Virus record (IMG/VR): IMGVR_UViG_3300042516_005060
Coordinates: 1 to 21,224 of that record
Direction: 5' to 3' (one strand)
DNA: 21,224 bases
Origin: a virus
In this document: positions 2,106 through 20,603 of the stretch, piece by piece
Layout of the letters: each line of letters begins with the position of its first letter
Position numbering within the stretch: the first letter of the stretch is position 1
The notes under the pieces: generated by a model
What the model saw: only the letters and a program-made list of their open reading frames with translations
What the model was told of the DNA's origin: nothing
Database searches by the model: none
Made by a program: the position numbers and the translations under genes

Positions 2106-2110
2106 TTTAA

Positions 2111-2476
2111 TTATAATTTTAATGGTTCTGTTTCAGCTAAAATTTCTTTAATAGCCTCAATGTTTACTTTTATTTCTTCTACTTCTTTTACGGTACCATA
2201 TACATCTGATTCTTTACAGATATAATAGTCTTTACTATCAAATGATACTTTAACAGCACCCATTTTAGGTACTAATACTATATCACCTTCTTTTAATGTT
2301 GATGGCAGTTGTGTACCTGTATAGAAATTATAACCTACGCTCACAGATTCAACTGTAGCGATTTCAGGACGTTCTTTACCTAGATCAGGTAAGATAATGT
2401 TTCCTGCTAATACCTCTTGTTCCTCAATTGGCTTAAGAATGATGTAACCATTCTTTGGTTCAATGTATTTACTCAT
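2111..2476 (-). CDS. groES: GroES-type 10-kDa co-chaperonin
   Basis: Cpn10 family lid for the GroEL ring, 121 residues against the usual 95-100. The N-terminal strand YIEPKNGYIILKPI and the mobile-loop region EEQEVLAGNIILPD (about 18-31, compare the usual GGI.LP) are recognisable. So is the roof and barrel part GDIVLVPKMGAVKV...YYICKESDVYGTV. The last 25 or so residues (VEEIKVNIEAIKEILAETE) are an extension with helical, charged character that standard GroES lacks. The start overlaps the stop of the upstream 79-residue gene by 8 nt and groEL follows 5 nt after the stop. Pairing with the phage GroEL is expected from position. The mobile loop differs from the bacterial one, which may tune it to that partner. 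Confidence 0.93.
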   Translation of the reverse strand: MSKYIEPKNGYIILKPIEEQEVLAGNIILPDLGKERPEIATVESVSVGYNFYTGTQLPSTLKEGDIVLVPKMGAVKVSFDSKDYYICKESDVYGTVKEVEEIKVNIEAIKEILAETEPLKL

Positions 2477-2708
2477 GTTTTGTTTTTATATTTAAATTTA
2501 ACTCATTTTCTTTAGGGAGCCAAGCAATTACCTCAGCGTCTTCTATTTTTTGTAGAAAGTATAGTTTACCTTCTTTACGTAATACTTTATCTGCGTCATA
2601 ATCAGAGCATAACAAATCAACGCTATTCTTAACGCTGTCAGTTTCAACTCTAATTTTCTGTACTAGGTAAATGTTGTCCTCGAATCTAATCGGTTCGTGT
2701 AGCATCAT
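2469..2708 (-). CDS. hypothetical protein, 79 aa, in chaperone operon
   Basis: No family is recognised. The 79-residue product is mixed alpha/beta, acidic, soluble, without membrane segments or signal peptide. It contains IYLVQKIRVETDS and KLYFLQKIEDAEVIAWL, two similar short segments that may be paired beta-strands. Two adjacent ATG codons begin it (2708 or 2705). It overlaps groES by 8 nt, suggesting translational coupling, and lies downstream of hsp20 across a 47-nt gap that carries one arm of a 13-bp inverted repeat. Its place between three chaperone genes makes a role in protein quality control possible, but nothing in the sequence shows it. Confidence 0.75.
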   Translation of the reverse strand: MMLHEPIRFEDNIYLVQKIRVETDSVKNSVDLLCSDYDADKVLRKEGKLYFLQKIEDAEVIAWLPKENELNLNIKTKHE

Positions 2709-2714
2709 AACTTA

Positions 2715-2727
2715 ACTTGGTAGGTCT
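2715..2727. repeat. left arm of 13-bp inverted repeat flanking hsp20
   Basis: ACTTGGTAGGTCT on the plus strand; its exact reverse complement is at 3251-3263. It lies 7 nt before the ATG of the 79-residue gene. Confidence 0.8.
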
Positions 2728-2755
2728 ATTTAATGTAAACTTTATTAATTGTAAC

Positions 2756-3190
2756 TTATTTTAAATGTAACGGTGCCTTAATTTCAATTTTCTTAAGTGC
2801 TTTCTCGGCCGAGTACGGTATATGAATAATTAACAAACCTTTGTCCATCATGGCTTCTAGTTTATTTAATTCAAATTTGGATGCGATTTTCCAAGCTAAG
2901 TCAAAAGAACGACGTGCTATACCCTTTTGGATATAAGGACGATTTTCTTCTCCTTCTGCTGCTTTTCTGTCGTGTGTAATTCTAAGTGTATCCCCTTCTA
3001 TTAGGATATTAAGATCTTCTTGATTAAGACCTACTACGGCTAATTCAAATATTAAGCCTGATTCTACTTCGTAGATATCAACTGGGTAGTTGATTTTGTG
3101 TTCGTGTGTGCTGAATTGTGCGTTTTGGTCGAATAGATTCTTCCAAACAATGTCAAATGGGTCCATTGCCCCTAGACGGAATTGTGTCAT
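2756..3190 (-). CDS. Hsp20 / alpha-crystallin small heat-shock protein
   Basis: ATP-independent holdase chaperone of 144 residues, the normal size. The alpha-crystallin domain covers about 33-136: it opens with YPVDIYEVESGLIFELAVVG, continues with DTLRITHDRK and a charged loop with PYIQKGIARRSFDLAW, and closes with GLLIIHIPY (the G-L-L/V motif), followed by a basic tail ending in LHLK. The start at 3190 is fixed by a strong AGGAGGT 5 nt upstream (3196-3202), rare in this window. A 13-bp perfect inverted repeat brackets the gene (2715-2727 and 3251-3263). Both traits suggest the gene was acquired or is regulated separately. T4-type phages and cyanophages often carry a small heat-shock protein; it would guard phage proteins against aggregation. 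Confidence 0.92.
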   Translation of the reverse strand: MTQFRLGAMDPFDIVWKNLFDQNAQFSTHEHKINYPVDIYEVESGLIFELAVVGLNQEDLNILIEGDTLRITHDRKAAEGEENRPYIQKGIARRSFDLAWKIASKFELNKLEAMMDKGLLIIHIPYSAEKALKKIEIKAPLHLK

Positions 3191-8741: not shown

Positions 8742-9338
8742 TTAAAATCCATTTGTTGCTGGATTATAGAATACTAAGCCTGTTACATTTGTTGTTTTTG
8801 TTATAGTTGGTGTTGAATAGTTAAAACCAAATACATCACCACCACCTTGTTCACCAAATTGCATTCTAACTGGGTAATATACTCCTGCTGTTAATGCTGA
8901 TGTACCACTTCGTTCCTGATTACCATGTGCTCCACCATTATTTACAGTTGAGTTTGCAGTTGAAAATCCTGATAATGCATTTGCTCCAATCCACATATAA
9001 GAAGCATCATCTGAGTTTGTAAAAAATGTATATGTTTCTGTTGTTGTTGGTTTAAAGTATCCTAACCATTGAACACTAAAATTAGAACCATCATCAGTTG
9101 CAGGTTCACTAATAACAGTAGTTTGTACGGAAGTTGCTGGGTTTCCTCCAAAAGAAGCTGATGTTGCTGTTGCAAAGAAACTAACATTATCTGCAAAATA
9201 TCCTGTATATGTTGTTTTAAATAGTCCAGCACTATATTGAATACTTAATGATAATGACATAGCAAGATTACCTTTATTAGTATTATTTACTAATGTAAAG
9301 TTACCTTTTCCGCTTGTATTTGATAATGTTATAGGCAT
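8742..9338 (-). CDS. PA14-domain protein, probable virion adhesin
   Basis: The 198-residue product carries a PA14-type beta-barrel, a carbohydrate-binding fold found in adhesins and glycosidases. It spans about 41-175: YTGYFADNVSFF, then FSVQWLGYFKPTTTETYTFFTNSDDASYMWIG, and AGVYYPVRMQFGEQGGGDVFGF near its end. The first 34 residues (MPITLSNTSGKGNFTLVNN...) resemble short phage structural N-termini, and the last 20 form a tail. The ATG at 9338 was chosen because it comes one base after the upstream stop (9340); a longer reading back to 9407 would overlap the dUTPase-like gene. No signal peptide is seen, as expected for a virion part. It would recognise host-surface glycans; this role is inferred. 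Confidence 0.75.
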   Translation of the reverse strand: MPITLSNTSGKGNFTLVNNTNKGNLAMSLSLSIQYSAGLFKTTYTGYFADNVSFFATATSASFGGNPATSVQTTVISEPATDDGSNFSVQWLGYFKPTTTETYTFFTNSDDASYMWIGANALSGFSTANSTVNNGGAHGNQERSGTSALTAGVYYPVRMQFGEQGGGDVFGFNYSTPTITKTTNVTGLVFYNPATNGF

Positions 9339-9339
9339 T

Positions 9340-9867
9340 CTATAATGAACTTCTTTGTTTATCGTTCTGCCACTGACCATTATATTTTTCAGCATCACTA
9401 CACTCATGGAAATATATTTGTGCTACACGAGCATCTTTCTCAATGAATAATGGTTCATGAACATATAATAATGTACCCATAAATTCTGTTTCAAATCCTG
9501 GATCAAACACTGGTGAGTTAATTATTGCTCCGTTTCTATATAATGAAGAGCGTTGTTTAATGAACGCTACTCTGTTTTCAGGTAACTTACATCCTTCCCA
9601 AAACGTGATATCATAAACACCATCATGTAACAAATATCCTTCATTACCATCTAACATTATAGTACTAACAGGAGTATATGTGGTTAATACCGTTTTATCC
9701 TTTAATACTTTGCCTATCTGTCCTTCTTTGAACATATTGTAACCAATACGATTACCAACTTTATTTACGGCTTTAAGAGACAAGTCATAACCAACTTGCG
9801 CTGCTTTACCTTTAGTCTCATCTAGTTTTAATAATCCTTCGTCTAATATTTGTTTTGCACTTAGCAT
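9340..9867 (-). CDS. dUTPase / dCTP deaminase superfamily protein
   Basis: The 175-residue protein matches the trimeric dUTPase/dCTP deaminase fold. Seen: FIKQRSSLYRNGAIINSPVFDPGFETEFMGTL (about 112-143, holding the R.SLxR.G and DPGF motifs), then EKDARVAQIYFHEC and the C-terminal YNGQWQNDKQRSS. dUTPases keep uracil out of DNA by hydrolysing dUTP; dCTP deaminases make dUTP from dCTP. Which activity this protein has cannot be told by eye, since the catalytic positions that separate the two are not clear. It lies 3 nt below rpsU and one base above the PA14 gene. It fits a nucleotide-supply role together with the class II reductase at 17305-19158. Confidence 0.8.
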   Translation of the reverse strand: MLSAKQILDEGLLKLDETKGKAAQVGYDLSLKAVNKVGNRIGYNMFKEGQIGKVLKDKTVLTTYTPVSTIMLDGNEGYLLHDGVYDITFWEGCKLPENRVAFIKQRSSLYRNGAIINSPVFDPGFETEFMGTLLYVHEPLFIEKDARVAQIYFHECSDAEKYNGQWQNDKQRSSL

Positions 9868-9870
9868 AAA

Positions 9871-10056
9871 TTACTTTGTTCGTTTAGATTCTATATATTT
9901 TGCCTTCAATATTTCCAGTCTACGTTCTACTGATGGCTTAGTGAATGTTTGTCTGTTACGTAATTCTTTTACAGTACCTATCTTGTTGTGTTTTTGTTTA
10001 TACACCTTCAAGGCATGTTCAATTGATTTGTGTTTCTGTACGTCTATTATGATCAT
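9871..10056 (-). CDS. rpsU: ribosomal protein bS21
   Basis: Small-subunit ribosomal protein S21, 61 residues, the usual length. The whole protein aligns by eye with bacterial bS21: MIIIDVQKHKSIEHALKVYK, then GTVKELRNRQTFTKPSVERR, then LEILKAKYIESKRTK. Tyr54 is present. bS21 sits by the anti-Shine-Dalgarno end of 16S rRNA and influences start selection. In Flavobacterium it helps hide that end, and I recall an aromatic residue at this position being involved. The start overlaps the ferredoxin stop (TAATG) and has no Shine-Dalgarno sequence. Phage-borne bS21 is known and is thought to replace the host copy on ribosomes. Its presence supports a Bacteroidetes-type host and a translation take-over role. 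Confidence 0.93.
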   Translation of the reverse strand: MIIIDVQKHKSIEHALKVYKQKHNKIGTVKELRNRQTFTKPSVERRLEILKAKYIESKRTK

Positions 10057-10364
10057 TAATTATATTTTAATCCGAAAAATTGATAATTCTTATGTACTGA
10101 CTCTTCCTCACCTGCTTTAATTGCTAAGTCCTCATCTTCATAAATTGCACTAACAGGACATTCAGGTACACATGCTCCACAGTTAATACAAGTATCTGGG
10201 TCTATATATAATTGTCCGCCTGGAAATGCTTCTTTGCCTTGAGCAGCTACTTCACCACCAGAACCTCCAACATTTATAGGTCCGTGAATACAATCAACAG
10301 GACAAGCGTTAGCACAAGCTGTGTCCATACAATCAACACAACTTTTTCCGATAATAAAACTCAT
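10056..10364 (-). CDS. bacterial-type ferredoxin with two Fe-S cluster motifs
   Basis: Low-potential electron carrier of 102 residues. The first cluster set is C9, C17, C21 with C25 (CVDCMDTACANACPVDC, with an extra C12). The second is a classic CINCGACVPECP. The spacing C-x7-C-x3-C-P resembles FdxA-like 7Fe/8Fe ferredoxins. A Gly-rich insert (NVGGSGGEVAAQGKEAFPGG) separates the two halves, and the C-terminal 25 residues form a short acidic-to-basic tail. It is joined to rpsU by a 1-nt overlap and lies 11 nt below the A-type carrier gene. Possible electron acceptors in the phage set are QueE (radical SAM) and the reductase system; both are inferences. Confidence 0.93.
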   Translation of the reverse strand: MSFIIGKSCVDCMDTACANACPVDCIHGPINVGGSGGEVAAQGKEAFPGGQLYIDPDTCINCGACVPECPVSAIYEDEDLAIKAGEEESVHKNYQFFGLKYN

Positions 10365-10375
10365 AATTTATCTTT

Positions 10376-10699
10376 TTATACTGCAAATGATTCACCACAA
10401 CCACAGGTTCGTGAAGCATTTGGATTAATGAATTGAAATCCTTTACCATTTAACCCACCACTAAACTCTAATTCAGTGCCGTAAAGATACAATAGAGATT
10501 TCATATCTACAAGTATTTTTACACCTTTATCTTCTGCTAATGTATCAGATGGGAGTTGTTCTGTATCAAAGGATAAATCATAAGATAATCCACTGCATCC
10601 ACCTCCTTTAACTGATACTCTAACAAATGGAGTTTGAAATCCACTTTCTTCGATTAGTGAATTTAATTTTATTGCTGCTGTTTCTGATACTGTTACCAT
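10376..10699 (-). CDS. A-type Fe-S cluster carrier (IscA/ErpA/SufA family)
   Basis: Carrier that passes Fe-S clusters from a scaffold to apo-enzymes; 107 residues, full length. The three invariant cysteines are present: C35 in GGGCSGLSY, and C99 and C101 in RTCGCGESF near the C-terminus. Other family marks are AAIKLNSLI at the start, VDMKSLLYLYGTELEFSGGLNGKGFQFINPN in the middle. It overlaps the iscU stop by one base (TAATG) and is followed by the ferredoxin, so scaffold, carrier and ferredoxin are translated in order. No cysteine desulphurase (IscS/SufS) is seen in the window, so sulphur would have to come from the host enzyme. Confidence 0.95.
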   Translation of the reverse strand: MVTVSETAAIKLNSLIEESGFQTPFVRVSVKGGGCSGLSYDLSFDTEQLPSDTLAEDKGVKILVDMKSLLYLYGTELEFSGGLNGKGFQFINPNASRTCGCGESFAV

Positions 10700-11109
10700 T
10701 ATATATGTGATTCTTCAAATACAATTGCCTCCAATCCCTGTTTTACTCGATAATCATTGATAGCTGCTTTAATAGCATCTTCTGCTAAAACCGAGCAGTG
10801 AATTTTAACAGGAGGTAAATTTAATTCCTCTACTAAATCCATATTATCTATAGTAATGGCTTCGTCTAATGATTTACCTTTCAACCATTCAGTAGCTACT
10901 GAAGAAGAAGCAATTGCTGAGCCGCATCCAAATGTTTTGAATTTAGCATCAACAATTATATTATTTTCTACTTCTATTTGTAAACGCATTACATCTCCAC
11001 ATTCCGGAGCCCCGACTAGTCCTGTACCAACATTTGCTTTAGATTTATCTAATGTGCCAATGTTACGTGGGTTTTCGTAATGTGCTATTACTTTATCTGA
11101 GTATGACAT
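10699..11109 (-). CDS. iscU: IscU-type Fe-S cluster scaffold
   Basis: Scaffold on which [2Fe-2S]/[4Fe-4S] clusters are built, 136 residues. Ligands are in place: C37 in GAPECGDVM with D39, C62 in FGCGSAIASSS, and C105 in KIHCSVLAEDAI. LPPVK (98-102), the chaperone-recognition motif of IscU, is intact. The start is placed at 11109 (MSYSDKVIAHYENPRN) because the family begins exactly there; a frame reading back to 11169 adds 20 residues that run into the upstream gene. The last 15 residues are an added tail. The gene leads the iscU-carrier-ferredoxin-rpsU run. A phage-borne IscU is uncommon. Its most plausible client in this window is the radical SAM enzyme QueE. Confidence 0.96.
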   Translation of the reverse strand: MSYSDKVIAHYENPRNIGTLDKSKANVGTGLVGAPECGDVMRLQIEVENNIIVDAKFKTFGCGSAIASSSVATEWLKGKSLDEAITIDNMDLVEELNLPPVKIHCSVLAEDAIKAAINDYRVKQGLEAIVFEESHI

Positions 11110-11286: not shown

Positions 11287-11919
11287 TTAAAATTTAGTTC
11301 CATTAACCTCTATCGCGTGTAAGAATTCCTCTCTAATTAAATTTTCTTTTTCCATAAACACACCACTAAATTTATTTGTAGTCATTACAGAACCATGCTT
11401 AATACCTCTATGTGAGCAACATGTATGCTTACAAGCAATACTAACTGCTACTGATTGACATATCATTTTATCAGCAATATAATCATGAATTTGTGTTGTT
11501 AATGATTCTTGCATTTGTGGTCTACGTCCAAACCATTCAACAATACGATTTAATTTAGATAAACCGATAACATTTTCTGCTGGTACATAGGCTACTGTAG
11601 CATAACCTGTAAATGCTAAGTTATGATGAGCACACATACTAACAATAGGAATACCTGATTGGATTACTAACCCATCGTATCCTTCATCGTTAGGAAATAC
11701 TGTAATATTTGGTTCATTAGTAACTGAGCCTACAATTAAATCTTTTAACCATGCTTTAGCTACTCTACGCGGTGTATCAACTGTTTGTCTGTCTGCTGTA
11801 TAATCAAAACCTACTGCATTTAAGAAACCAGCATAAGCATCAGCCGCTTTATCAATCATTTGCTCTATTTCTTCTGGTGTACGAGCTAAATTACCATTAG
11901 ATTTTTTTAGTAGTTCCAT
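11287..11919 (-). CDS. folE: GTP cyclohydrolase I
   Basis: Makes 7,8-dihydroneopterin triphosphate from GTP, the first step of both folate and 7-deazaguanine synthesis; 210 residues, normal length. Seen: TPRRVAKAW (about 49-57), the zinc site with C96 and H99 in SMCAHHNLAF and C167 in CKHTCCSHRG, and GLSKLNRIVEWFGRRPQMQESLTTQI (119-144). The start overlaps the end of the upstream small membrane gene by 23 nt. In this phage, with queD, queE, queC and dpdA nearby, its product is expected to go to preQ0 rather than folate. The Cys-rich CKHTCC segment has one Cys more than usual next to the ligand. Confidence 0.96.
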   Translation of the reverse strand: MELLKKSNGNLARTPEEIEQMIDKAADAYAGFLNAVGFDYTADRQTVDTPRRVAKAWLKDLIVGSVTNEPNITVFPNDEGYDGLVIQSGIPIVSMCAHHNLAFTGYATVAYVPAENVIGLSKLNRIVEWFGRRPQMQESLTTQIHDYIADKMICQSVAVSIACKHTCCSHRGIKHGSVMTTNKFSGVFMEKENLIREEFLHAIEVNGTKF

Positions 11920-12103
11920 TTTTCTTATTTTTTTCTTTTAAATTAGTTAATTCTCTGTCAGTCTCCAAAAATTTAGTTAAAGTGGCTGCAAATAAAGCAT
12001 CCATTTTGGAGTCAATGTCTTGTTTAGCATTATCAATCATTCTCCACATTATGCCTTGTACGGCAACTAATGCTAAACATAAAATAATAAGAGCATTGAT
12101 CAT
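11897..12103 (-). CDS. single-pass membrane protein with cytoplasmic coiled coil, 68 aa
   Basis: No family is recognised. MINALIILCLALVAVQGIMW is one membrane segment, followed by a charged helical tail (IDNAKQDIDSKMDALF, then ETDRELTNLKEKNKK). The start at 12103 is preferred because it lies one base after the upstream stop, as at several junctions here; an ATG at 12121 adds six residues and overlaps that gene by 17 nt. Its 3' end overlaps folE by 23 nt, implying coupled translation. Confidence 0.6.
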   Translation of the reverse strand: MINALIILCLALVAVQGIMWRMIDNAKQDIDSKMDALFAATLTKFLETDRELTNLKEKNKKNGTTKKI

Positions 12104-12104
12104 A

Positions 12105-12455
12105 TTAGTCTCTGTTATCATAATAAAATTTTCTTATTTTAGCTCCTAACTCTTGATCATTTGGAGTATCTGTAATTAAGTAAGTAGGAATAGCTAAATG
12201 TTCTCGACTAGTTCCTCTATTATAACATGATTGACATAATTGACCAGCACCTTCAATATAGTGGTTTCTAAAATCAATATGAGTACCTTTAACATACGGA
12301 GTGTCTTTACCACACAACACACATGTTTCTACTTCATTTACTTTAGCTTTACCTTCAGCCTCTAAAGCGCATGATAAATGATCATAACCTACTAAATAAT
12401 CAAAGTCTACATCACCTGTATCCTTATCACAATATTGACATTTAAATTTACTCAT
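12105..12455 (-). CDS. zinc-ribbon-like protein, 116 aa
   Basis: The protein has three CxxC pairs: C6-C9 (FKCQYCDK), CVLCGKDTPYV, and LCQSCYNRG, plus a single Cys near His in YDHLSCALEAEG. The two later pairs, about 30 residues apart with HIDFRNHYIEGAG between, look like a treble-clef or zinc ribbon of the HNH-like or recombination-endonuclease VII type. The expected catalytic His/Asn are not clear, so a plain metal-binding role is as likely. The C-terminal 25 residues are mixed. It sits 4 nt below the gene ending at 12460, inside the pterin/preQ0 block, with no visible link to that pathway. Confidence 0.7.
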   Translation of the reverse strand: MSKFKCQYCDKDTGDVDFDYLVGYDHLSCALEAEGKAKVNEVETCVLCGKDTPYVKGTHIDFRNHYIEGAGQLCQSCYNRGTSREHLAIPTYLITDTPNDQELGAKIRKFYYDNRD

Positions 12456-12459
12456 ATTA

Positions 12460-12666
12460 TTAGTTTTTGTTTTCGTATGTTAATCCTCCTACTAATTGAT
12501 AAGCATCCCATAAATTAGTTATAGCATCTTCAACTAGTGATTGAATTTCTTTTTGTTGTTCAGCTAATGGATGTTCTAGAATATGATCATTTATAGTACT
12601 CATAGCAACATGAAGTCTATCCATTAGTTCTAAGTAGTGACCACTATTTATTTTTACTTTTTCCAT
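12460..12666 (-). CDS. hypothetical protein, 68 aa
   Basis: No family is recognised. The start at 12666 (MEKVKINSGHYLELMDRLHVAM) is preferred; a reading from 12732 would add a Lys/Arg-rich stretch that is only the shadow of the lysine-rich tail of the gene it overlaps. The product is mostly helical (AMSTINDHILEHPLAEQQ, then EIQSLVEDAITNLWDAYQ) and soluble. It overlaps the upstream gene by 23 nt. Confidence 0.6.
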   Translation of the reverse strand: MEKVKINSGHYLELMDRLHVAMSTINDHILEHPLAEQQKEIQSLVEDAITNLWDAYQLVGGLTYENKN

Positions 12667-12922
12667 TCTTTTTCTTTGGCGCAGCTTTCTTTTTAGGTAC
12701 TGCTTTTTTAGCTTTTGGTTTTTCCTCAACAATCTCTTCTAATACTGAAAACTCAGTATCGTCTTGATAGCATTGATCATCTTGAAGGCGAGTAACATCA
12801 TCACACATTCCATCAGGACAATTTTCAACTAACTCAATTGCTTCATCTTCATTATCAGCTGTGACAATGTAAGTCCAAGCTTCTACTAAGGTGCGTTCAC
12901 CCATAATTTTATACTTTGGCAT
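12644..12922 (-). CDS. hypothetical protein with lysine-rich tail, 92 aa
   Basis: No family is recognised with certainty. Residues 1-55 form a compact alpha/beta part (YKIMGERTLVEAWTYIVTADNEDEAIELV) whose Y.V.A.NEDEA pattern occurs in many small phage and bacterial proteins of unknown role. It has three Cys (CPDGMC, QCYQ). Residues 66-92 are a Lys/Pro/Ala run (KPKAKKAVPKKKAAPKKK), typical of non-specific nucleic-acid binding. It lies 1 nt below the gene ending at 12924. Confidence 0.65.
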   Translation of the reverse strand: MPKYKIMGERTLVEAWTYIVTADNEDEAIELVENCPDGMCDDVTRLQDDQCYQDDTEFSVLEEIVEEKPKAKKAVPKKKAAPKKKNGKSKNK

Positions 12923-12923
12923 A

Positions 12924-13163
12924 TTAACTAGTTTGTTTATCTATTTCTCTTTGTCTTGCTTCTTTAAGAAATTTAACCCATGAATCTGCTGCTTCAACAC
13001 CTGCTTTTTCACTAATGTTTTTATGAATTTCAGCTAAAGAGACATCTGTTACTTCCATCATTTCAGCTAATGCTAATTTTTCAGCTTCAAGTCGGGTTTG
13101 TTCGTCTTTCCAAAACTGTTTTCTTTCATCTTCAGAAAGTGTTTTCCATGTTTCTAATGTCAT
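12924..13163 (-). CDS. hypothetical protein, 79 aa, helical
   Basis: No family is recognised. The product is highly charged and almost all helix (TWKTLSEDERKQFWKDEQTR, EKLALAEMMEVTDVSLAEIH, ADSWVKFLKEARQREIDKQ), soluble, without Cys. It begins 3 nt after the queE stop at 13167, so it is probably co-translated with queE. It could be a small accessory factor or an anti-host peptide; nothing selects between these. Confidence 0.65.
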   Translation of the reverse strand: MTLETWKTLSEDERKQFWKDEQTRLEAEKLALAEMMEVTDVSLAEIHKNISEKAGVEAADSWVKFLKEARQREIDKQTS

Positions 13164-13166
13164 ATA

Positions 13167-14006
13167 TTATACGTTTAATGTTTTATTCCAAGCTGCAATA
13201 TGTAATCTAGTTAATCCACGGAATCTATACTTCTTAGCCATTTCTAAACAGAATTGAGTACGCTCTTCAAAATCAGCAACATCATCTAAACCAGGCATAC
13301 AAACAACATTTTTAAGAGGTATATTGAATGGTACTACAAAGTCACGAAATACTTCCTTAACATCATCTTCTGTACTAATAACAAACTTAAATTGATAGTT
13401 TTTATGTTCCATAATACGTTTGATAGCATCTGGTACTAAACGTTGCTTTTCAGTCATACCTGAGTTGGCTAACTTAGGTGAGCAGTTAATTTGTTCTAAA
13501 TGGTCAAATAAAGGTTGATCAATTACTACAGTACCATTAGTCTCAATTTCATTATACAAATTATTTAAATCATAGGGTCCTATAAGAGTCCTCCAGTAAT
13601 TGTGAAAATTAACAATTGCTTCTTGATGACCTTTAATTGTTGGTTCACCACCAGTCCAGATAACATGGACATCACCTTTTAAAATATCTTCATATACACC
13701 TTCTTCTTTCCAACGATTAATTAAATAATCGAATTCTTTATCTTCACCTCTCCATAACCATTGGCTTGTTGAGTCACAAGTCCAAGTAGCTTTACCTTCA
13801 GCATGCAAATCACCAACAAATATTTCTCCATCTTCTAGTGATGCTTCTTTCATTAAGTTATTAGTGAATGCTCTAGACATACCGCAAGTTAGGTTACAAA
13901 TACCTAAGCGAACGAAGTATGACGGAATACCTGATGAAATACCTTCACCTTGTACACTGTAAAAATCACTACTGATTAGTAGTTTGTTTGGGTCTATTTT
14001 GTTCAT
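13167..14006 (-). CDS. queE: 7-carboxy-7-deazaguanine synthase, radical SAM (QueE)
   Basis: Radical SAM enzyme that converts 6-carboxytetrahydropterin to 7-carboxy-7-deazaguanine; 279 residues, longer than the usual 210-240. Seen: the opening FYSVQGEGISSGIPSYFVRLG, the cluster cysteines C37 and C41 (CNLTCGMSR) and C77 (WTCDS), WTGGEPTI for SAM binding, and EIETNGT. Normal radical SAM enzymes have CX3CX2C; here the third Cys is 36 residues after the second, because of an insertion (SRAFTNN...GKAT). Some QueE groups are known to carry insertions in this motif, so activity is expected. It is coupled to the small gene 13969-14145, which overlaps its start by 38 nt. Its need for an Fe-S cluster and a reductant may explain the phage IscU, carrier and ferredoxin. 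Confidence 0.93.
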   Translation of the reverse strand: MNKIDPNKLLISSDFYSVQGEGISSGIPSYFVRLGICNLTCGMSRAFTNNLMKEASLEDGEIFVGDLHAEGKATWTCDSTSQWLWRGEDKEFDYLINRWKEEGVYEDILKGDVHVIWTGGEPTIKGHQEAIVNFHNYWRTLIGPYDLNNLYNEIETNGTVVIDQPLFDHLEQINCSPKLANSGMTEKQRLVPDAIKRIMEHKNYQFKFVISTEDDVKEVFRDFVVPFNIPLKNVVCMPGLDDVADFEERTQFCLEMAKKYRFRGLTRLHIAAWNKTLNV

Positions 14007-14145
14007 ATTTTTTTAGTTTTTTTATTTCTTTCTCATATAATTTTTGGTAGTGTTCTTGTGTCCATCCATCATTATAAGGACTTAAAGCGTGGATTCTATA
14101 TTTTCCAGCATTAAGTTCAATTTCAGATTTTTTATCTAACTTCAC
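13969..14145 (-). CDS. small GTG-start protein, 58 aa
   Basis: A short open frame beginning GTG at 14145, which overlaps the stop of the gene above in GTGA, and ending TAG inside queE. The product has SEIELNAGKYRIHALSPYND, then TQEHYQKLYEKEIKKLKKYE, a folded start and a basic coiled-coil end. The region would otherwise be an unexplained 135-nt gap in a tightly packed operon. No family is recognised. The non-ATG start lowers confidence. Confidence 0.5.
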   Translation of the reverse strand: MKLDKKSEIELNAGKYRIHALSPYNDGWTQEHYQKLYEKEIKKLKKYEQNRPKQTTNQ

Positions 14146-14279
14146 CATTTGAATATTGTTTTTATATAATTAAATATAGGACTAAAATTGTGCCACTCAG
14201 AGATTATGGCAACAATACTAATATGTCTTTCACCACATAATCCTAAAGTATGTTCTAATATATGTAATATTTCATGCAT
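14142..14279 (-). CDS. small protein, 45 aa
   Basis: The product begins MHEILHILEHTLGLCGERH and ends FSPIFNYIKTIFKW. The His-rich opening with HILEHTLGLCGE resembles short hypothetical proteins I recall from Bacteroidetes and their phages; no function is known. The start at 14279 is one base after the upstream stop (TAACATG). A reading from 14393 exists in the same frame, but it would lie wholly over the 53-residue gene, so the shorter form is preferred. Confidence 0.55.
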   Translation of the reverse strand: MHEILHILEHTLGLCGERHISIVAIISEWHNFSPIFNYIKTIFKW

Positions 14280-14280
14280 G

Positions 14281-14442
14281 TTATTTTGTTTCTTCTGTTT
14301 TAGGAGCAGGACGCTCTTGATTTTTCCACTCAGACTTAGGAACGTAAGACCATTGTCTGCCAGCCATTTGATTTGCTTGAACATCAGCAACACGAATGAT
14401 GTTGCCTGTTTTTGTATTTTTTAAACACTTCATATTGTCCAT
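14281..14442 (-). CDS. small protein, 53 aa
   Basis: An ATG at 14442 opens a 53-residue frame: MDNMKCLKNTKTGNIIRVAD, then QMAGRQWSYVPKSEWKNQ and a Pro/Lys tail ending TEETK. The pattern (short beta hairpin K..TG.I.RV.D, then W.YV.KSEWK) is coherent and suggests a real small phage protein. It is the first gene below the terminator at 14466-14485 and starts the queE-side transcript. No family is recognised. Confidence 0.65.
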   Translation of the reverse strand: MDNMKCLKNTKTGNIIRVADVQANQMAGRQWSYVPKSEWKNQERPAPKTEETK

Positions 14443-14465
14443 GTTTTAGATTGTTAATAGTAAAA

Positions 14466-14485
14466 CATCCCCCTTTCGGGGGATG
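14466..14485 (-). terminator. factor-independent terminator below the HTH gene
   Basis: On the minus strand CATCCCCC-GAAA-GGGGGATG gives eight perfect pairs with a GNRA loop (ten with the flanking A-T pairs), followed by TTTTACTATT. It starts 26 nt after the HTH stop. It divides queC/dpdA/queD and the HTH gene from the queE-folE side. Confidence 0.85.
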
Positions 14486-14511
14486 TTGGTGGGGGTTGAT
14501 GAATTAACGTT

Positions 14512-14721
14512 TTAAGCTAACTCACTGTTTTTAACACGACGACGAGCTACATTGTACATCTCGTTCGCTAATGTGTCGTTAATACTTCTTTCACCTGCTT
14601 TTACATAGTTGATAAAGCGTGTAGTGAATCCTGTGGTTTCTGCTAAACGAGCAGTGTCACCTTGGCGTTCGCGGGCTGTGTAAAAAGCCAACTTTGCGGT
14701 TTTGTTCAATCTTCTTGACAT
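14512..14721 (-). CDS. small helix-turn-helix protein, 69 aa
   Basis: Probable DNA-binding regulator. After a basic start (MSRRLNKTAKLAFYTARERQ) comes an HTH of Cro/XRE type at about 22-50: DTARLAETTGFTTRFINYV followed by KAGERSINDTLANEMYNVARRR. The order (LA..TGFT..F...V..GERS.N..LA...Y..ARRR) fits small phage or plasmid regulators. Base use differs slightly from its neighbours (more G+C). It lies between queC (37-nt A/T-rich gap) and a strong terminator, so it can be expressed as the end of the queC operon or on its own. Its targets are unknown. Confidence 0.8.
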   Translation of the reverse strand: MSRRLNKTAKLAFYTARERQGDTARLAETTGFTTRFINYVKAGERSINDTLANEMYNVARRRVKNSELA

Positions 14722-14758
14722 AACTGTATTTTGATTTATAATTAAAGATAACTAATTT

Positions 14759-15604
14759 TTATTGGGAGGCCAAATGATCTGCCAATACTTTTTCAACAGA
14801 TGATTTTGCTACTTCCCAACTAACAGGACCTGTTTCATCTTCATATTGTACAGGATCAGGACGTCCTAATTTAATAAACGCTTCAATACGTTCTACTGAC
14901 GCTGCTGATTTATAATCACTATTTCCTGATGGATATGGTTTGTAGGAAGTATTGGTACGTTTATATACTTCATTAAAGTCTAAACCTAACTTATTACATG
15001 ATTCTGCTCCATCTTGTAATATGTCATATTTCATAACTTCTAAGTATGGAGTATAATAACTTACTAATTCACTATCCCAGTTACCTACTTTAAAAGCGTG
15101 TAAATCAGCATCACGGAACTCAGCACGACAATCAGGATAAACAGCTTCATCACCTTTATGAATACCCATTGCAATTTCTACTTCACTTTTTTCACCTCTA
15201 GTAGCAATTGATAACGCTACAGCTTGAATCAATGAAGCAAATATTTTGTTTCTGTTAGGTACAACTGTTTCTTTCATATTGTCTTGCTCATAATGTCCTT
15301 CAGGAACATCAGCGCCACCAGTTACTAAAGCTGAGTTTAATAATTGAGATAAACCATCTAATTTAATAATTTGGTGTGTTACTGGATGCCATTGATAATT
15401 TTTGTCATTATCAAATGGTGGATGAGTAGCGCTCCAAATATCATTAATATACTCAACTAATGCTGTTGCGCGTTCTAATTCTACTTTGTGCTTTTGACCA
15501 TAATCAAAACCTAATGCTGTTACTTGATAGCCATTAGCTAATAGGTGTAACAATAATGAACTAGAGTCCATTCCCCCTGACAGTGATAATACTGCTTTTT
15601 TCAT
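14759..15604 (-). CDS. queC: 7-cyano-7-deazaguanine (preQ0) synthase, QueC-like, lacking zinc cysteines
   Basis: ATP-dependent enzyme that turns 7-carboxy-7-deazaguanine into preQ0; 281 residues. Seen: PP-loop SGGMDS (9-14), FDYGQKH (33-39), TVVPNRNKIFASLIQ (113-127), GIHKGDEAVYPDCRAEF (148-163), and a C-terminal ERIEAFIKLGRPDP (238-251). The usual zinc-binding cysteine set before that last motif is gone: where QueC normally has SCY...CGxCxxC, this protein reads NTSYKPYPSGNSDYKSAASVE. Only C159 and C203 remain in the protein. It may have lost zinc but kept the fold, or have a changed reaction; amide-forming QueC relatives are known. The gene is followed by the HTH gene and lies 7 nt below dpdA. 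Confidence 0.9.
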   Translation of the reverse strand: MKKAVLSLSGGMDSSSLLLHLLANGYQVTALGFDYGQKHKVELERATALVEYINDIWSATHPPFDNDKNYQWHPVTHQIIKLDGLSQLLNSALVTGGADVPEGHYEQDNMKETVVPNRNKIFASLIQAVALSIATRGEKSEVEIAMGIHKGDEAVYPDCRAEFRDADLHAFKVGNWDSELVSYYTPYLEVMKYDILQDGAESCNKLGLDFNEVYKRTNTSYKPYPSGNSDYKSAASVERIEAFIKLGRPDPVQYEDETGPVSWEVAKSSVEKVLADHLASQ

Positions 15605-15611
15605 AACTTTA

Positions 15612-16418
15612 TTATTTTATAAACGATTTAAACTTATTCAAATTAAAGATAATGTCTTCTAACTTGTCATCCAAGTTTTTCTCAAAATAATACTCTAATT
15701 TTTCTTTTGGTTTCCAATCAATACCATTATCATCATATCTTTTACCTTCAGCACCAACTAATATTGGATTAGATGTGTCTACTGATTGGATAAATTTCCA
15801 ATCATCATATGACATAAATTCTTGTGGTAATGAGCATCCTAATAAATGATGATAAACATCTTTTCTAATTATACTACGTTCTACTAGTCGTCTAATGAAT
15901 TCCATTCTACCATACATTGCCATTTCTAATGGAGTATAATTTGTATCTCCACCTGTAGCTGAATAAAAATATTCTTGATATGCTATACTGGAATGATTAA
16001 ATGCAATATGAGTGTATCCTAAATCAACTAGTGTTTGGTATGTTGTAATTAACTCACCCATATCTTTACCTTGGCATACAGCCATTAGGTTAACACCTTC
16101 AGGTAAACCTTCCTTATAGTTTATCATCCAACTCTTAGCATTGCGAAGTGTAGCGGCTGCGTCATTCCATTCATCAGGAACAACAAATATATTAGGACGA
16201 ACTAAATTAATTTTATCTAATAAATCTTCTGTTGTATGAGTTACTCCTTCAAATAGACCATTATCCATGATAATGAAACGTCCATGTGTTTTAGAATACT
16301 CAAAAAATTCTTTGTACTCTGTGTATTTGTCAATTAAATGTGGTAAACAATAATCATAGTCGTTCCACTTATATGCAAATTTCATTAAGCCCAAAGGCAA
16401 CTCATGACTAACCTTCAT
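15612..16418 (-). CDS. dpdA: DpdA-like DNA 7-deazaguanine transglycosylase
   Basis: TGT-fold enzyme related to tRNA-guanine transglycosylase that exchanges guanine in DNA for a 7-deazaguanine base. The 268-residue product is shorter than cellular DpdA. Seen: MDNGLFEG (51-58, the substrate-binding Asp region), VVPDEW (79-84), LMAVCQGKDMGEL, YTHIAFNHSS, HHLLGCSLPQEF and SVDTSNP (about 202-208, place of the nucleophilic Asp). No zinc motif like that of bacterial TGT is obvious. The start at 16418 overlaps the queD stop by 11 nt; a longer frame to 16448 runs into queD. The link with FolE, QueD, QueE and QueC strongly supports the call. Archaeal-type or queuosine TGT for tRNA is the alternative. 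Confidence 0.85.
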   Translation of the reverse strand: MKVSHELPLGLMKFAYKWNDYDYCLPHLIDKYTEYKEFFEYSKTHGRFIIMDNGLFEGVTHTTEDLLDKINLVRPNIFVVPDEWNDAAATLRNAKSWMINYKEGLPEGVNLMAVCQGKDMGELITTYQTLVDLGYTHIAFNHSSIAYQEYFYSATGGDTNYTPLEMAMYGRMEFIRRLVERSIIRKDVYHHLLGCSLPQEFMSYDDWKFIQSVDTSNPILVGAEGKRYDDNGIDWKPKEKLEYYFEKNLDDKLEDIIFNLNKFKSFIK

Positions 16419-16872
16419 ATACAGCTGTATTTTTATTATGTTCAGCAAATTCTACTCTCACAACACTAACTCTACCATTGGTTTCTTCCTGAACAAATGT
16501 ATTAATTTTTTCAAATACATACTTAGCAAATTGTTCAGCACCTACACTTGGTAATTCTCTTAATTGAATAATACCTAATTCATTCATTGTTCTAAATCCA
16601 CCAATACCTGGATCATCTTCAGCTACAAGTGTAGTGTGGTCAAACATATAGTCCATCCATTCTTTAGGATTTTTATTATCAATAGTACCTTTAGCACGTT
16701 TCATACCTCCAAAATCCCAAACCCAATTTCTTTCATCTAATTCACCTTCAAACCATACTTTAAATGAAACACCATAACCATGAAGGTATTTACAATGAGT
16801 ACCTTCTGCTCTCCATTGACGGAATACTGTACTAAAACCATCAAATATTTTTGTTGATTGAAACTTTCCCAT
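16408..16872 (-). CDS. queD: 6-carboxy-5,6,7,8-tetrahydropterin synthase, QueD-like
   Basis: Converts dihydroneopterin triphosphate to 6-carboxytetrahydropterin in preQ0 synthesis; 154 residues. Seen: STVFRQWRAEGTHCKYLHGYGVSF (about 14-37) with the catalytic C27, WDFGGMK, the catalytic FDHTTLVAEDDPG (77-89), and E144 in EFAEHNKNTAVY. Standard QueD has three zinc His (near 16, 31 and 33 in the HGH motif). Here H31 is kept, but HGH reads HGY and no His lies near 16. H26 may substitute. I recall a FxxxFRQWRA/HGYA subgroup of QueD-like proteins, so this could be a family variant rather than decay. It leads the queD-dpdA-queC run, 1 nt below a membrane-protein gene. Confidence 0.88.
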   Translation of the reverse strand: MGKFQSTKIFDGFSTVFRQWRAEGTHCKYLHGYGVSFKVWFEGELDERNWVWDFGGMKRAKGTIDNKNPKEWMDYMFDHTTLVAEDDPGIGGFRTMNELGIIQLRELPSVGAEQFAKYVFEKINTFVQEETNGRVSVVRVEFAEHNKNTAVYEG

Positions 16873-17304: not shown

Positions 17305-19158
17305 CTACACTATTTCACAAGCGCCTCCAGCACACGCTGCTTGATCCATTAATGCTGTTTCATCACTGAACTCAACTACTTTACTTAAGTCAATATTATG
17401 TAAGTGAGTAGCCATTTCATTAAATTGTTCTTCAGTAATATCCTCGAATGGAGCTTGTTTATATGTTCCTCCGAAATAAGGTAATACTGATAAGCCATTA
17501 AATGTATTTCTATTCTCCCACATCCACTTACCTACTGCTTCCCATTCACCTTCGTTAATTGATACAGTAGCAGAAACATTATTTGTATTAGCACCTTTAC
17601 GATGTCCTTTCTTAACCCATTGTGTGTTGAATCTCTTAGTACGTTCAAGCATATCCATTACATTCTCTGTTCTTAAAATAGAACCAACAGGTGCTTTTTG
17701 TGGTACTGAAATAACTGCTTGAATTGTTGGTTTGAAAAAATCATCTTCAACTAATTCTGGATGGTTAGTAGCTAAGTGTGAGTATATAGCTTCATTCTTA
17801 CCTACTCTAATTCTTCTAACATAGTAATCATTATGCCAAGCGTGAATACCACTTGATGTACCTAACACTAATGAACTAGTACCTGATGGTTTAACTGTAG
17901 TTACACGAGCTGCTTTATTTACACCTATAATATCAGCTACACGAGCGTTTTCTTCTTTAGCTAAGTCGGCTGCTTTTTTCAAGTCATAGTTCAAAATAAC
18001 TCCTGAACCAATACCTGTCATACCAACACCTAACAAAGCATCTTTCTCTGTTGTTTTACGCCAAATATCTCTTAAGTAATGAAAATCAGTATATGCTGCT
18101 TGTAATGTTCCAATAAATGCACCTACACGTACTCTTTCATTTAAATCATCTTGTGATTCAATATTTGACACATTTACTTCACATAAGTTACAGAATTGAT
18201 AAGAACGTAATGCTATTTCACAGCATGGATTAGTACCCCAATCTTTATCATTACTGAAGTAAATACCTGGTTCACCAGATCCACTTAACTCAATTTTCTT
18301 CCATAGTTTAAAAAATTCCTCCTCATCAATTTTATGACGCATAACAACTGCTGAGTTATTTGCTCTTCCACGTTGTGGATTTTGTTCCCACCATTCACCA
18401 AACTTACATGTTAACATTGCCTCATCATCCAAGTTAAACAATGAAATTAACGCTGCTCTTCTAATACCACCACTCAATACTGCATCTGCAATATGACAAG
18501 CCATATCATGTACTTCAACTGATGATAATTTATCACCATTTTGTTTACGTTCAAATATCTTTTGTAAGTTGAATAAGCATTCTTTTAATGGTTCAGGACC
18601 AGGTGCTTTACCTCCTACAGTAATTAGTTGTGCTCCTTTAGGACGAATATCTCTAAAGTCAAACAATGGTAATGGTGCGCCTGTAAAATATGCTTTACAT
18701 AACATACGAACAGCATCAGCCCATCCTTCAATACTGTCACCAATCAAATAACGTTTATGTTTAGTTGGTACTTTAATTTCAGGTAATTGCTCAATGTGAT
18801 GTAGTTGTACTGAATATCCCACTCCACATCCTGATAATAATAGGAACATTATTTCACTAAAAGATCTCCAATCATCAATAGGTAAAAAAGAACAATTAAA
18901 TATACGAGCATTATTAAGTTCAATGGGACGACCAGAGAATTGTAAACTTCTCATAGACGGTAATACCTTTTTATCATACACCAACCGGTAGGCGTTTTCT
19001 ATCTCATCACTCAGTTGGGGAAATTTCTTTTGGTGCATTTCCTTGTTTCTTGTTACTAACTCGTCCCATGTCTCTCTACGCTTAAGTTCAGGAACATATC
19101 GACTATACTTCATATAAGTAGTAATGTCCGATAAAATTGATTGTGTTATGTTCATCAT
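17305..19158 (-). CDS. nrdJ: class II (adenosylcobalamin-dependent) ribonucleotide reductase
   Basis: Reduces ribonucleotides to deoxyribonucleotides with coenzyme B12; monomeric RTPR-like type, 617 residues (Lactobacillus enzyme 739). The Cys set fits RTPR: C89 (FNCS) and C323 (FCNLCEVN) as the reducing pair, C312 (NPCCEI) as the thiyl-radical Cys, 11 residues before C323 as in the Lactobacillus enzyme, and the C-terminal pair C609/C614 in ACAGGACEIV. Other marks: SGCGVGYSVQ, SGGIRRAALI, TTVKPSGTSSLVLGTSSGIH. No intein is seen. It needs no partner subunit and works with or without oxygen. A GIY-YIG endonuclease gene ends 2 nt upstream. It would supply dNTPs for the phage polymerase; the host must obtain cobalamin. 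Confidence 0.96.
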   Translation of the reverse strand: MMNITQSILSDITTYMKYSRYVPELKRRETWDELVTRNKEMHQKKFPQLSDEIENAYRLVYDKKVLPSMRSLQFSGRPIELNNARIFNCSFLPIDDWRSFSEIMFLLLSGCGVGYSVQLHHIEQLPEIKVPTKHKRYLIGDSIEGWADAVRMLCKAYFTGAPLPLFDFRDIRPKGAQLITVGGKAPGPEPLKECLFNLQKIFERKQNGDKLSSVEVHDMACHIADAVLSGGIRRAALISLFNLDDEAMLTCKFGEWWEQNPQRGRANNSAVVMRHKIDEEEFFKLWKKIELSGSGEPGIYFSNDKDWGTNPCCEIALRSYQFCNLCEVNVSNIESQDDLNERVRVGAFIGTLQAAYTDFHYLRDIWRKTTEKDALLGVGMTGIGSGVILNYDLKKAADLAKEENARVADIIGVNKAARVTTVKPSGTSSLVLGTSSGIHAWHNDYYVRRIRVGKNEAIYSHLATNHPELVEDDFFKPTIQAVISVPQKAPVGSILRTENVMDMLERTKRFNTQWVKKGHRKGANTNNVSATVSINEGEWEAVGKWMWENRNTFNGLSVLPYFGGTYKQAPFEDITEEQFNEMATHLHNIDLSKVVEFSDETALMDQAACAGGACEIV

Positions 19159-19160
19159 TG

Positions 19161-19769
19161 TTATTTGTTTTTATATTTCCATATGAATCTTCCAGCTGTT
19201 TTAGCTCTGCCTCTCAAAACATTAGATATACCTTTAATGTTTAGTTGTCTTAAAGCATCATCTACAGATGTAAATTCATTAATTATTGCTCCTGATATTG
19301 GGTCTATTTGGTATATAGGTTTACGTATTTTTAATAGAGATTCAGTTTTGTGTTTTTTGCCTGTGAACCCACCTCCTTTATGTTTACCTATAGCAGATAT
19401 AGATTGTTGTTGTTTTGTTTTGTCAGTATGTTTTCTTCCTTTCATTGGAGATTTTCTACCTTTTAACTTTTCAGATACACTATTCCCTATTTTTTGTTTA
19501 GCAGCATCTGTATGAGACATAGGTCCTCCACCTCCTTTGTTTTTATTAATAACATTATATCCTATATTTTTATAATATTGTATCCATTTTGTTTCTAATA
19601 ATTTCCATTCTTCTTTATCAATACTATCTATTTCATCAATAATATTATAGGAAATTTGTTTACCCAAATCATGTCTATGATCAGCCTCTCTACTATTTTT
19701 AGTTTTACCTATATATACTTTATTAGGATCATTATCTATATTAGTAATAAGATATATTTTAGTTTTCAT
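19161..19769 (-). CDS. GIY-YIG homing endonuclease with NUMOD-type DNA-binding repeats
   Basis: Free-standing homing endonuclease of 202 residues. The GIY-YIG part is at the N-terminus: IYLITN (5-10), VYIGKTKNSREADHR (18-32), and the metal-binding Glu in LLETKWIQYY (E59). Then come basic NUMOD3-like motifs (GRKSPMKGRKHTDKTK, FTGKKHKTESLLKIRKPIY) and a NUMOD1-like end (FTSVDDALRQLNIKGISNVL, then GRFIWKYKNK). It ends 2 nt before the class II reductase start. Such genes often cut a phage-lacking allele near their own position, so the reductase region is a likely target. Base use is more A+T-rich than its neighbours, as for other mobile endonucleases. It is a likely later insertion between the 85-residue gene and nrdJ. 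Confidence 0.92.
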   Translation of the reverse strand: MKTKIYLITNIDNDPNKVYIGKTKNSREADHRHDLGKQISYNIIDEIDSIDKEEWKLLETKWIQYYKNIGYNVINKNKGGGGPMSHTDAAKQKIGNSVSEKLKGRKSPMKGRKHTDKTKQQQSISAIGKHKGGGFTGKKHKTESLLKIRKPIYQIDPISGAIINEFTSVDDALRQLNIKGISNVLRGRAKTAGRFIWKYKNK

Positions 19770-19869: not shown

Positions 19870-20127
19870 TTAAACTAATTTATTATCCTCGTCCGCGAAT
19901 GCGTATAAGATAAAGTCGTCAAAGATATCTTTTGGGACACCTTGTAACGTGTTGGAGTACTCTTGTAGCTTTGATTCGTTAATCAATTGTAAGTTACTCT
20001 CTAATAGAACCGGTTTGAAACTCAATAATGTTTCTTGAATGATATCTGTGTCGTCATCTCCGTAAGCAATACTCTCATCTAAGTATTCTTTCATTAACTT
20101 GTCTAAATTTGCCTTTGAATACTCCAT
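19870..20127 (-). CDS. hypothetical protein, 85 aa
   Basis: No family is recognised. The product is strongly acidic and helical (SKANLDKLMKEYLDESIAYG, then IIQETLLSFKPVLLESNLQL, and a C-terminal PKDIFDDFILYAFADEDNK), soluble, without Cys. Its ATG overlaps the upstream stop in TAATG, so it is translationally coupled to the 158-residue gene. Acidic small phage proteins are often inhibitors or DNA mimics; this is only a possibility. Confidence 0.7.
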   Translation of the reverse strand: MEYSKANLDKLMKEYLDESIAYGDDDTDIIQETLLSFKPVLLESNLQLINESKLQEYSNTLQGVPKDIFDDFILYAFADEDNKLV

Positions 20128-20603
20128 TATTTAAAACGTTTTTTTATTTCAGAAATAATATATTTGGAGATACGACTAATCGTTTCTTTCAATTTATCTT
20201 TTAATGCTTTCTTTTGTTGCCCTATACGTAATCCCTTAAATGGTACCTCAACACTCTTCATATGGGGTTCTAAATATTCACGATAGGCAGTACCTGCTAA
20301 AAATACGAAATTATCTTTGTCAAGATCATACTTTCTTGACGCTAGTTGATTTAAAACAGTATCTGCCCAATCTTTTCTAGCATCTGATGGCATTTCTTTC
20401 AATGTCTTATTATAAGGCTCAATAGTCTTATGTAATGGTACTAAATGATGTTTAGCAGATAATATATATATATCTTTATCATCAGTTAATTTCTTAGCAT
20501 ATGCCAATTGCTTATTAAACAAATCAGAATTATATAGCTTTTCAGCTGGTGCTGGCTTGTTTAATTTGCCTGCGGAACATGATACGAATACTACTGTTGA
20601 CAT
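20127..20603 (-). CDS. DUF6884-like protein, 158 aa
   Basis: The product opens VVFVSCSAGKLNKPAPAEKLYNSDLF and continues DIYILSAKHHLVPLHKTIEPYNKTL, a pattern I associate with the DUF6884 group: an N-terminal strand ending in SC..K, a PAPA.LY.S..F motif, and an LSA.H.LV....EPY..TL motif. The order suggests a nucleoside- or base-binding alpha/beta fold with active-site Cys and His, but no reaction is established to my knowledge. The C-terminal 35 residues are basic and helical. It lies 27 nt below the helicase and is coupled to the 85-residue gene. A link with the 7-deazaguanine system of this phage is possible but unproved. Confidence 0.72.
   Translation of the reverse strand: MSTVVFVSCSAGKLNKPAPAEKLYNSDLFNKQLAYAKKLTDDKDIYILSAKHHLVPLHKTIEPYNKTLKEMPSDARKDWADTVLNQLASRKYDLDKDNFVFLAGTAYREYLEPHMKSVEVPFKGLRIGQQKKALKDKLKETISRISKYIISEIKKRFK

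Follow-up and report, generated by a model that had tools for sequence, protein, structure and literature searches.

A viral preQ0 and DpdA gene cassette whose QueC lacks the zinc-binding cysteines

The cassette and its transglycosylase

The stretch of viral DNA analysed here, which we call the window, is the complete IMG/VR record IMGVR_UViG_3300042516_005060 (21,224 bp). Every gene identified in it lies on the minus strand. It carries genes for the synthesis of preQ0 (7-cyano-7-deazaguanine) together with a gene for a DpdA-type DNA guanine transglycosylase. Read along the minus strand, the order is QueD (6-carboxytetrahydropterin synthase, 16872-16408), DpdA (16418-15612), QueC (preQ0 synthase family, 15604-14759), a small unknown protein (14721-14512), QueE (the radical SAM synthase of 7-carboxy-7-deazaguanine, CDG; 14006-13167), a few small proteins, and FolE (GTP cyclohydrolase I, 11919-11287). 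The DpdA gene starts at an ATG at 16418 and overlaps QueD by 11 bases. No tRNA genes and no Rfam matches were found in the window, and megablast found no close DNA relative of it among sequenced phages.

All five genes are intact open reading frames, and their span is 11287-16872. Family-search E-values for FolE, QueE, QueC and QueD ranged from 1e-14 to 4e-58: QueD matched phrog_2389 (1e-39) and PF01242 (1.4e-14) and has relatives that are 75-100% identical, QueC matched PF06508 (1.7e-36), QueE matched phrog_2076 (4.3e-37) and nothing in Pfam, and FolE matched PF01227 (1.4e-46) and phrog_2197 (3.7e-58). The neighbourhood is kept in dozens of IMG/VR relatives on many independent contigs, the largest of 173 kb. 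Because five pathway enzymes lie within 5.6 kb, with strong E-values and a neighbourhood conserved across independent contigs, we consider from the sequence evidence that the set is real and cannot be due to chance. A first-pass annotation, made from the sequence alone, had placed FolE, QueD, QueE, QueC and DpdA within 5.6 kb on one strand, and this was borne out by the reading frames, the family matches and the DpdA model described next.

The DpdA product had no match in Pfam or NCBIfam. Its PHROG is the unannotated phrog_19058 (6e-31), which it has in common with gp056 of Campylobacter phage CP220 and the DpdA of Flavobacterium phage immuto. An AlphaFold model, built from an alignment of 66 viral relatives, had a mean predicted local distance difference test (pLDDT) score of 96.4. 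When this model was compared with the PDB by Foldseek, the best match was a tRNA-guanine transglycosylase (TGT; 2pot, 1.4e-8) and the second was bacterial DpdA, the DNA preQ0 insertase (7ui4, 6.9e-8); all 50 of the PDB matches listed were TGT or DpdA. Additionally, D52, D82, Q116 and D214, which align with catalytic or binding positions of TGT, were invariant in the 66 sequences, and hhalign placed the GIIQG of E. coli TGT on AVCQG of the window protein. Searches of the PDB by phmmer with this protein, and with the DUF6884 protein discussed below, returned nothing useful.

The first-pass annotation had also suggested a structural check of the 15612 product against DpdA and TGT. The TGT/DpdA fold was recovered, but closeness to DpdA over TGT was not: the two structural matches tie, and so do distant profile comparisons (E 0.03 for the DpdA of Vibrio phage VpKK5 vs 0.0056 for E. 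coli TGT). As fold and distant profiles tie, the assignment to DpdA was decided by membership of a virus family and by the conserved partner genes and context. The window protein is 33% identical to the annotated DpdA of immuto and 36% identical to CP220 gp056 (hhalign profile comparison with the latter, E 8e-55). The transglycosylase of Cellulophaga phage phiST is a more distant member of the same phage family, and close sequence kin were confined to this family. By these comparisons, the window DpdA is of the CP220/immuto/phiST lineage and not of the CAjan/Rosebush type. This lineage is the one that Cui 2023 reportedly named DpdA3 and linked with complete replacement of G.

End products vary among members of this lineage; 2'-deoxy-7-amido-7-deazaguanosine (dADG) is documented for CP220. 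The gene for gp056 (L003:12001-12777) is annotated as hypothetical, and its product clearly belongs to the same transglycosylase family as the window DpdA. This relationship makes gp056 a candidate for the enzyme behind the complete dADG substitution in CP220. Hutinet 2019 (PMC6884629) classed the Campylobacter phages among those without DpdA.

A QueC class without zinc cysteines

Canonical QueC (PF06508 cluster 1; Libby 2026, PMC13329287) has the motifs SGGxDS, YxQxHxxE, VPxRN and YPDC; its zinc-binding motif is C(x)8CxxCxxC. In the E. coli enzyme, Tyr35, Arg99, Tyr131 and Tyr189 are essential (PMC13329287). The window QueC retains SGGxDS, YGQKHxxE, VPNRN and YPDC as well as the equivalents of Tyr189 and Lys165, which PMC13329287 gives as essential or conserved residues. 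Its four zinc cysteines are replaced by Ser, Asp, Ser and Ser, within TSYKP...SDYKSAASVER. The protein is about 50 residues longer than canonical QueC, with insertions. Its model had a pLDDT of 88.6, and the best PDB matches were the QueC structures 2pg3 and 3bl5. QueC begins at the P-loop and matched phrog_1550 (418 positions) only at 145-362, so it has no amidotransferase domain; the earlier statement that no amidotransferase fusion lies in the window was correct.

Zinc-less QueC sequences share the consensus TSYKP...SDYKSA[AS]SVER at the zinc site, with the same Ser/Asp/Ser/Ser patch. The catalytic motifs were kept in all 125 of these sequences, save single changes in YPDC. Among loci fetched by DpdA alone, each of the 67 resolvable QueC genes was zinc-less and none had the zinc motif; as DpdA alone was used to fetch these loci, the count is free of circularity. 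When 119 viral loci were fetched by the zinc-less motif, 81 held DpdA3 and none held a DpdA1-type gene (many of these loci are truncated). QueF lay beside the zinc-less QueC in 16 of the 119, and nine of those 16 had a formyltransferase too. Zinc-less QueC and QueF occur within one genome in immuto. In a QueC tree, the QueF-associated zinc-less genes were scattered, and some were near the window QueC.

Zinc-less QueC also turned up when bacterial genomes were scanned: it occurs in Cysteiniphilum, Facilibium, Fangia, Legionella gresilensis and two genomes of Thiotrichales. It was the sole full-length QueC in all nine bacterial genomes examined (loci L314, L316-L319, L321, L323, L326 and L328), each of which also had QueF and TGT, and it adjoined QueD/QueE in seven of the nine. 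Because it is the sole full-length QueC of nine bacteria that bear QueF and TGT, and because viruses also encode it together with QueF, which uses preQ0, we believe, on this indirect genomic evidence, that zinc-less QueC very probably still makes preQ0. The idea that QueC halts at the amide owing to zinc loss was dropped as a lead on the same two grounds.

None of the clusters in PMC13329287 combines all the other canonical motifs with an absent zinc motif. The pairing of zinc-less QueC with DpdA3 appears to be an undescribed variant of a known system, and no report of it, or of the loss of the zinc site, was found in the literature searched. Zinc binding is regarded as a hallmark of QueC, which converts an acid to a nitrile. 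If our reading is true, a class with all the other catalytic residues and no zinc ligand would mean that zinc is dispensable for QueC chemistry. Additionally, because this QueC is paired strictly with a single DpdA lineage, the two together identify a large group of viruses, most of them uncultured, that are predicted to have heavy or full guanine substitution; such substitution bears on restriction, sequencing and annotation.

Proposed product and its alternatives

From the genes, folds, catalytic residues and co-occurrence described above, we infer a route of catalysis, a product, an extent of replacement and a purpose. In our model, GTP would be converted by FolE, QueD and then QueE to CDG, and the zinc-free QueC would convert this to 7-amido-7-deazaguanine (ADG) and still carry it on to preQ0. 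DpdA, forming a covalent intermediate at Asp214 (the nucleophile by alignment), would excise guanine from phage DNA after replication and would place preQ0 where the guanine was. We consider it very probable that the cassette makes preQ0 with a zinc-free QueC and that DpdA exchanges this preQ0 into replicated phage DNA. The first-pass annotation had proposed such synthesis and exchange, and the proposal is supported by homology and fold, by the catalytic residues and by a gene order that is conserved. As the cassette would make preQ0 and DpdA would swap it for guanine, virion DNA would most likely contain 2'-deoxy-7-cyano-7-deazaguanosine (dPreQ0), and every guanine may be replaced, as happens in the CP220 lineage. 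DNA modified in this way would be shielded from guanine-dependent host nucleases.

The minimal set of FolE, QueD, QueE, QueC and DpdA is shared with the DpdA1-type phages and yields dPreQ0 in CAjan and Rosebush (PMC6884629). These phages differ from the window in that about 30% of G is replaced and in that their relatives Skure and Godines have a zinc-type QueC. The Campylobacter Firehammerviruses (CP220 and CPt10) have a transglycosylase of the same family as the window, but the QueC of CP21 retains the zinc cysteines and the genes are scattered. Immuto (vB_FspM_immuto, Immutovirus) is like the window in its zinc-less QueC (60% identical), its DpdA family, QueD, QueE, FolE and GroEL/GroES. 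Unlike the window, it encodes QueF and a formyltransferase close to DpdA, a phosphoribosyltransferase, DNA polymerase A and a QueE with a different cysteine spacing, and its base is probably derived from preQ1; QueF and the formyltransferase are both missing from the window and its nearest relatives. Bacterial DpdA (7ui4) shares the fold of the window DpdA, and the same chemistry is expected. In contrast, the bacterial Dpd system has a DpdA of 413 residues with DpdB and DpdC as partners, whereas in the window only a remote protein of the DpdC superfamily and no DpdB were seen.

The transglycosylase might instead work on tRNA, with the preQ0 genes raising host queuosine and the phage DNA left unmodified. 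Such a target was proposed by Hutinet 2019 (PMC6884629) for phages that have preQ0 genes without DpdA, and the best single fold match of the window protein is a tRNA TGT. However, its phage family includes gp056 of CP220, and the DNA of CP220 is fully substituted. The window protein has 268 amino acids, about 100 fewer than E. coli TGT, and its gene is fixed beside those of QueD and QueC across phage genomes. We regard a tRNA target as highly improbable, and we give hardly more credence to the proposal that the zinc-less QueC is a repurposed relative, as QatC or Cap9 are, and not a preQ0 synthase. The latter would fit the treatment of C(x)8CxxCxxC loss as divergence in PMC13329287, where zinc-less proteins with all the other motifs fall outside the clusters. 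Yet the remaining canonical motifs are near-invariant in the 125 sequences, unlike in QatC, LarE and GMPS, and the QueF- and TGT-bearing bacteria have the zinc-less form as their sole full-length QueC, mostly placed with QueD/QueE.

As for the base in the virion, we lean towards dPreQ0 with modest confidence. The first-pass annotation had named dPreQ0 as the simplest product; the precedent of CAjan and Rosebush agrees with this, but the CP220 lineage of the DpdA and the DUF6884 protein give dADG some probability. No queF lies in the window, as had been stated, and the sole, weak match to a QueF model proved to be the T-fold of FolE. Several points weigh against the overall proposal. The record is a fragment of a genome, so the absence of QueF and of an amidotransferase from it says little. 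The likeness of the window DpdA to experimentally tested DpdA1 proteins is barely detectable, and hhalign gave marginal matches to the DpdA1 type (Godines, E 0.2; VpKK5, E 0.03). The closest lineage whose product is chemically defined, that of CP220, has dADG, though the QueC of its kin CP21 is of the zinc type. Last, it is possible, as remote sequence likeness weakly suggests, that the DUF6884 protein takes dPreQ0 to dADG.

A final base of dADG could arise from the same cassette if QueC stopped at the amide or if the DUF6884 protein hydrated dPreQ0 in DNA as DpdC does; we think this unlikely. Among phages whose product has been measured, the closest are CP220 and CPt10, and their DNA is reported to carry 100% dADG (PMC8306585). 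DpdC, a DUF328 (PF03883) protein, converts dPreQ0 to dADG in bacterial Dpd islands (PMC12839542). The DUF6884 gene (20127-20603; PF21818, 1.4e-43), missing from the first-pass annotation, is on the strand of QueD and 3.3 kb upstream of it, is retained in several relatives, and encodes a remote relative of DpdC's YaaA/DUF328 family. C9, S10, K13, Y24, S26 and other residues are invariant among DUF6884 proteins, and of eight family members from these phages, four have a match to PF03883 (best E 1e-4, below the cut-off); the window protein itself matches DUF6884 only. However, DUF6884 is present in five of 20 large relatives and absent from the other 15, which have the same cassette. It is also frequent in other phages (many of Mycobacterium and Caulobacter), mostly outside QueC-bearing records, and an amide-stopping QueC conflicts with the occurrence of zinc-less QueC alongside QueF in phages and bacteria. 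A role for the DUF6884 protein as an ArcS-like archaeosine synthase was rejected, as it had a remote YaaA/DUF328 link and no PF17884 match. Still less probable, in our view, is a further base, such as 2'-deoxy-7-aminomethyl-7-deazaguanosine (dPreQ1), formyl- or methyl-preQ1 or deoxyarchaeosine (dG+), made by genes beyond the fragment. QueF does stand beside zinc-less QueC in 16 other viral loci, nine of them with a formyltransferase, and some of the QueC rows that are nearest by tree path come from loci with QueF. Set against this, QueF and formyltransferase were absent from 13 near relatives, and QueF and ArcS (PF17884) from the records of 20 larger relatives, nearest by DpdA, of 55-173 kb. 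For dG+ by way of Gat-QueC, neither an N-terminal amidotransferase domain in QueC nor PF17884 in the large relatives was found.

With dPreQ0 as the favoured base, the modification would probably hide the DNA from bacterial restriction, by analogy with the DpdA1-type phages. CAjan DNA made without dpdA is fully digestible (PMC6884629). Rosebush DNA resists BamHI, BstXI, EcoRV and NdeI and is cut by HaeIII, MluI and PciI (PMC6884629). The first-pass annotation had stated that such DNA is known to resist many restriction enzymes; the reported protection by dPreQ0 is partial.

QueE, accessory genes and neighbours

The cysteine motif of QueE is expanded to CX3CX35C (C37, C41 and C77) in place of CX3CX2C, by an insertion that is in frame and conserved in all relatives. 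Other spacings are CX3CX22C in halovirus HVTV-1, CX3CX7C in immuto and CX3CX6C in phiSM. In HVTV-1 DNA, dPreQ1 stands at about 30% of G (PMC6884629); spacing of this kind is thus compatible with an active enzyme. The possibility that the insertion breaks QueE was rejected, as it is in frame and conserved and a similar expansion occurs in HVTV-1.

Immediately downstream of FolE, family searches identified ferredoxin (10056-10364), IscA (10376-10699) and IscU (10699-11103, with a likely ATG at 11103) in a row on the minus strand. IscU holds the same position in the relatives L007, L008 and L236, and several other relatives have a phosphoribosyltransferase there instead. It is possible that these genes support QueE, a [4Fe-4S] enzyme. 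They were rejected as a dedicated QueE cassette: IscU was found in at least 589 viral contigs, and Que genes were near only five of the closest 80. As most viral IscU genes are without Que neighbours, the link to QueE is suggestive at most.

In 44 cases a locus holds both FolE and a phosphoribosyltransferase gene; in 40 of these the two were no more than 500 bp apart, always on the same strand. The phosphoribosyltransferase gene is absent from the window's 21 kb. The FolE-linked enzyme is most like xanthine/guanine phosphoribosyltransferase (PRK09177), and example genes are L009:14278-14676, L017:13863-14252 and L241:13631-14053. In VpKK5 (L023:5230-6132) the phosphoribosyltransferase is fused to FolE (residues 1-122, E 2e-11). 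As one guanine would be ejected by DpdA per GTP used by FolE, such an enzyme could return guanine to the pool, and we suggest that it possibly recycles the guanine released by DpdA. If true, a loop from guanine to GMP and GTP would close the cycle needed by full-genome replacement; no report of it was found.

We offer a broader proposal tentatively, at a confidence a little short of even. A large virus lineage, whose cultured members are Flavobacterium phages, may pair DpdA3 with a zinc-independent QueC that makes preQ0. This QueC may have become, or come from, the enzyme that is the sole full-length QueC in certain gammaproteobacteria (Cysteiniphilum, Facilibium, Fangia and a Legionella), and the FolE-linked phosphoribosyltransferase present in many of these viruses may recycle the guanine ejected by DpdA to GMP and GTP.

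The other genes of the window are varied. A gene for an adenosylcobalamin-dependent ribonucleoside-triphosphate reductase (TIGR02505) lies at 17305-19158. The protein that follows it (19161-19769) resembles GIY-YIG homing endonucleases by eye, and a related reading frame lies between QueD and DpdA in the relative L005 (9391-9981). GroEL, GroES and Hsp20 protein genes stand in a row at 456-3190. A GLEYA/PA14-domain protein (8742-9407; PF10528 1e-19, PF07691 1e-13) is encoded amid replication and metabolic genes. The DNA polymerase (4032-6614) is of family B, and its closest counterpart among sequenced phages is that of Microcystis phage Mel-JY01 (36%); immuto has family A.

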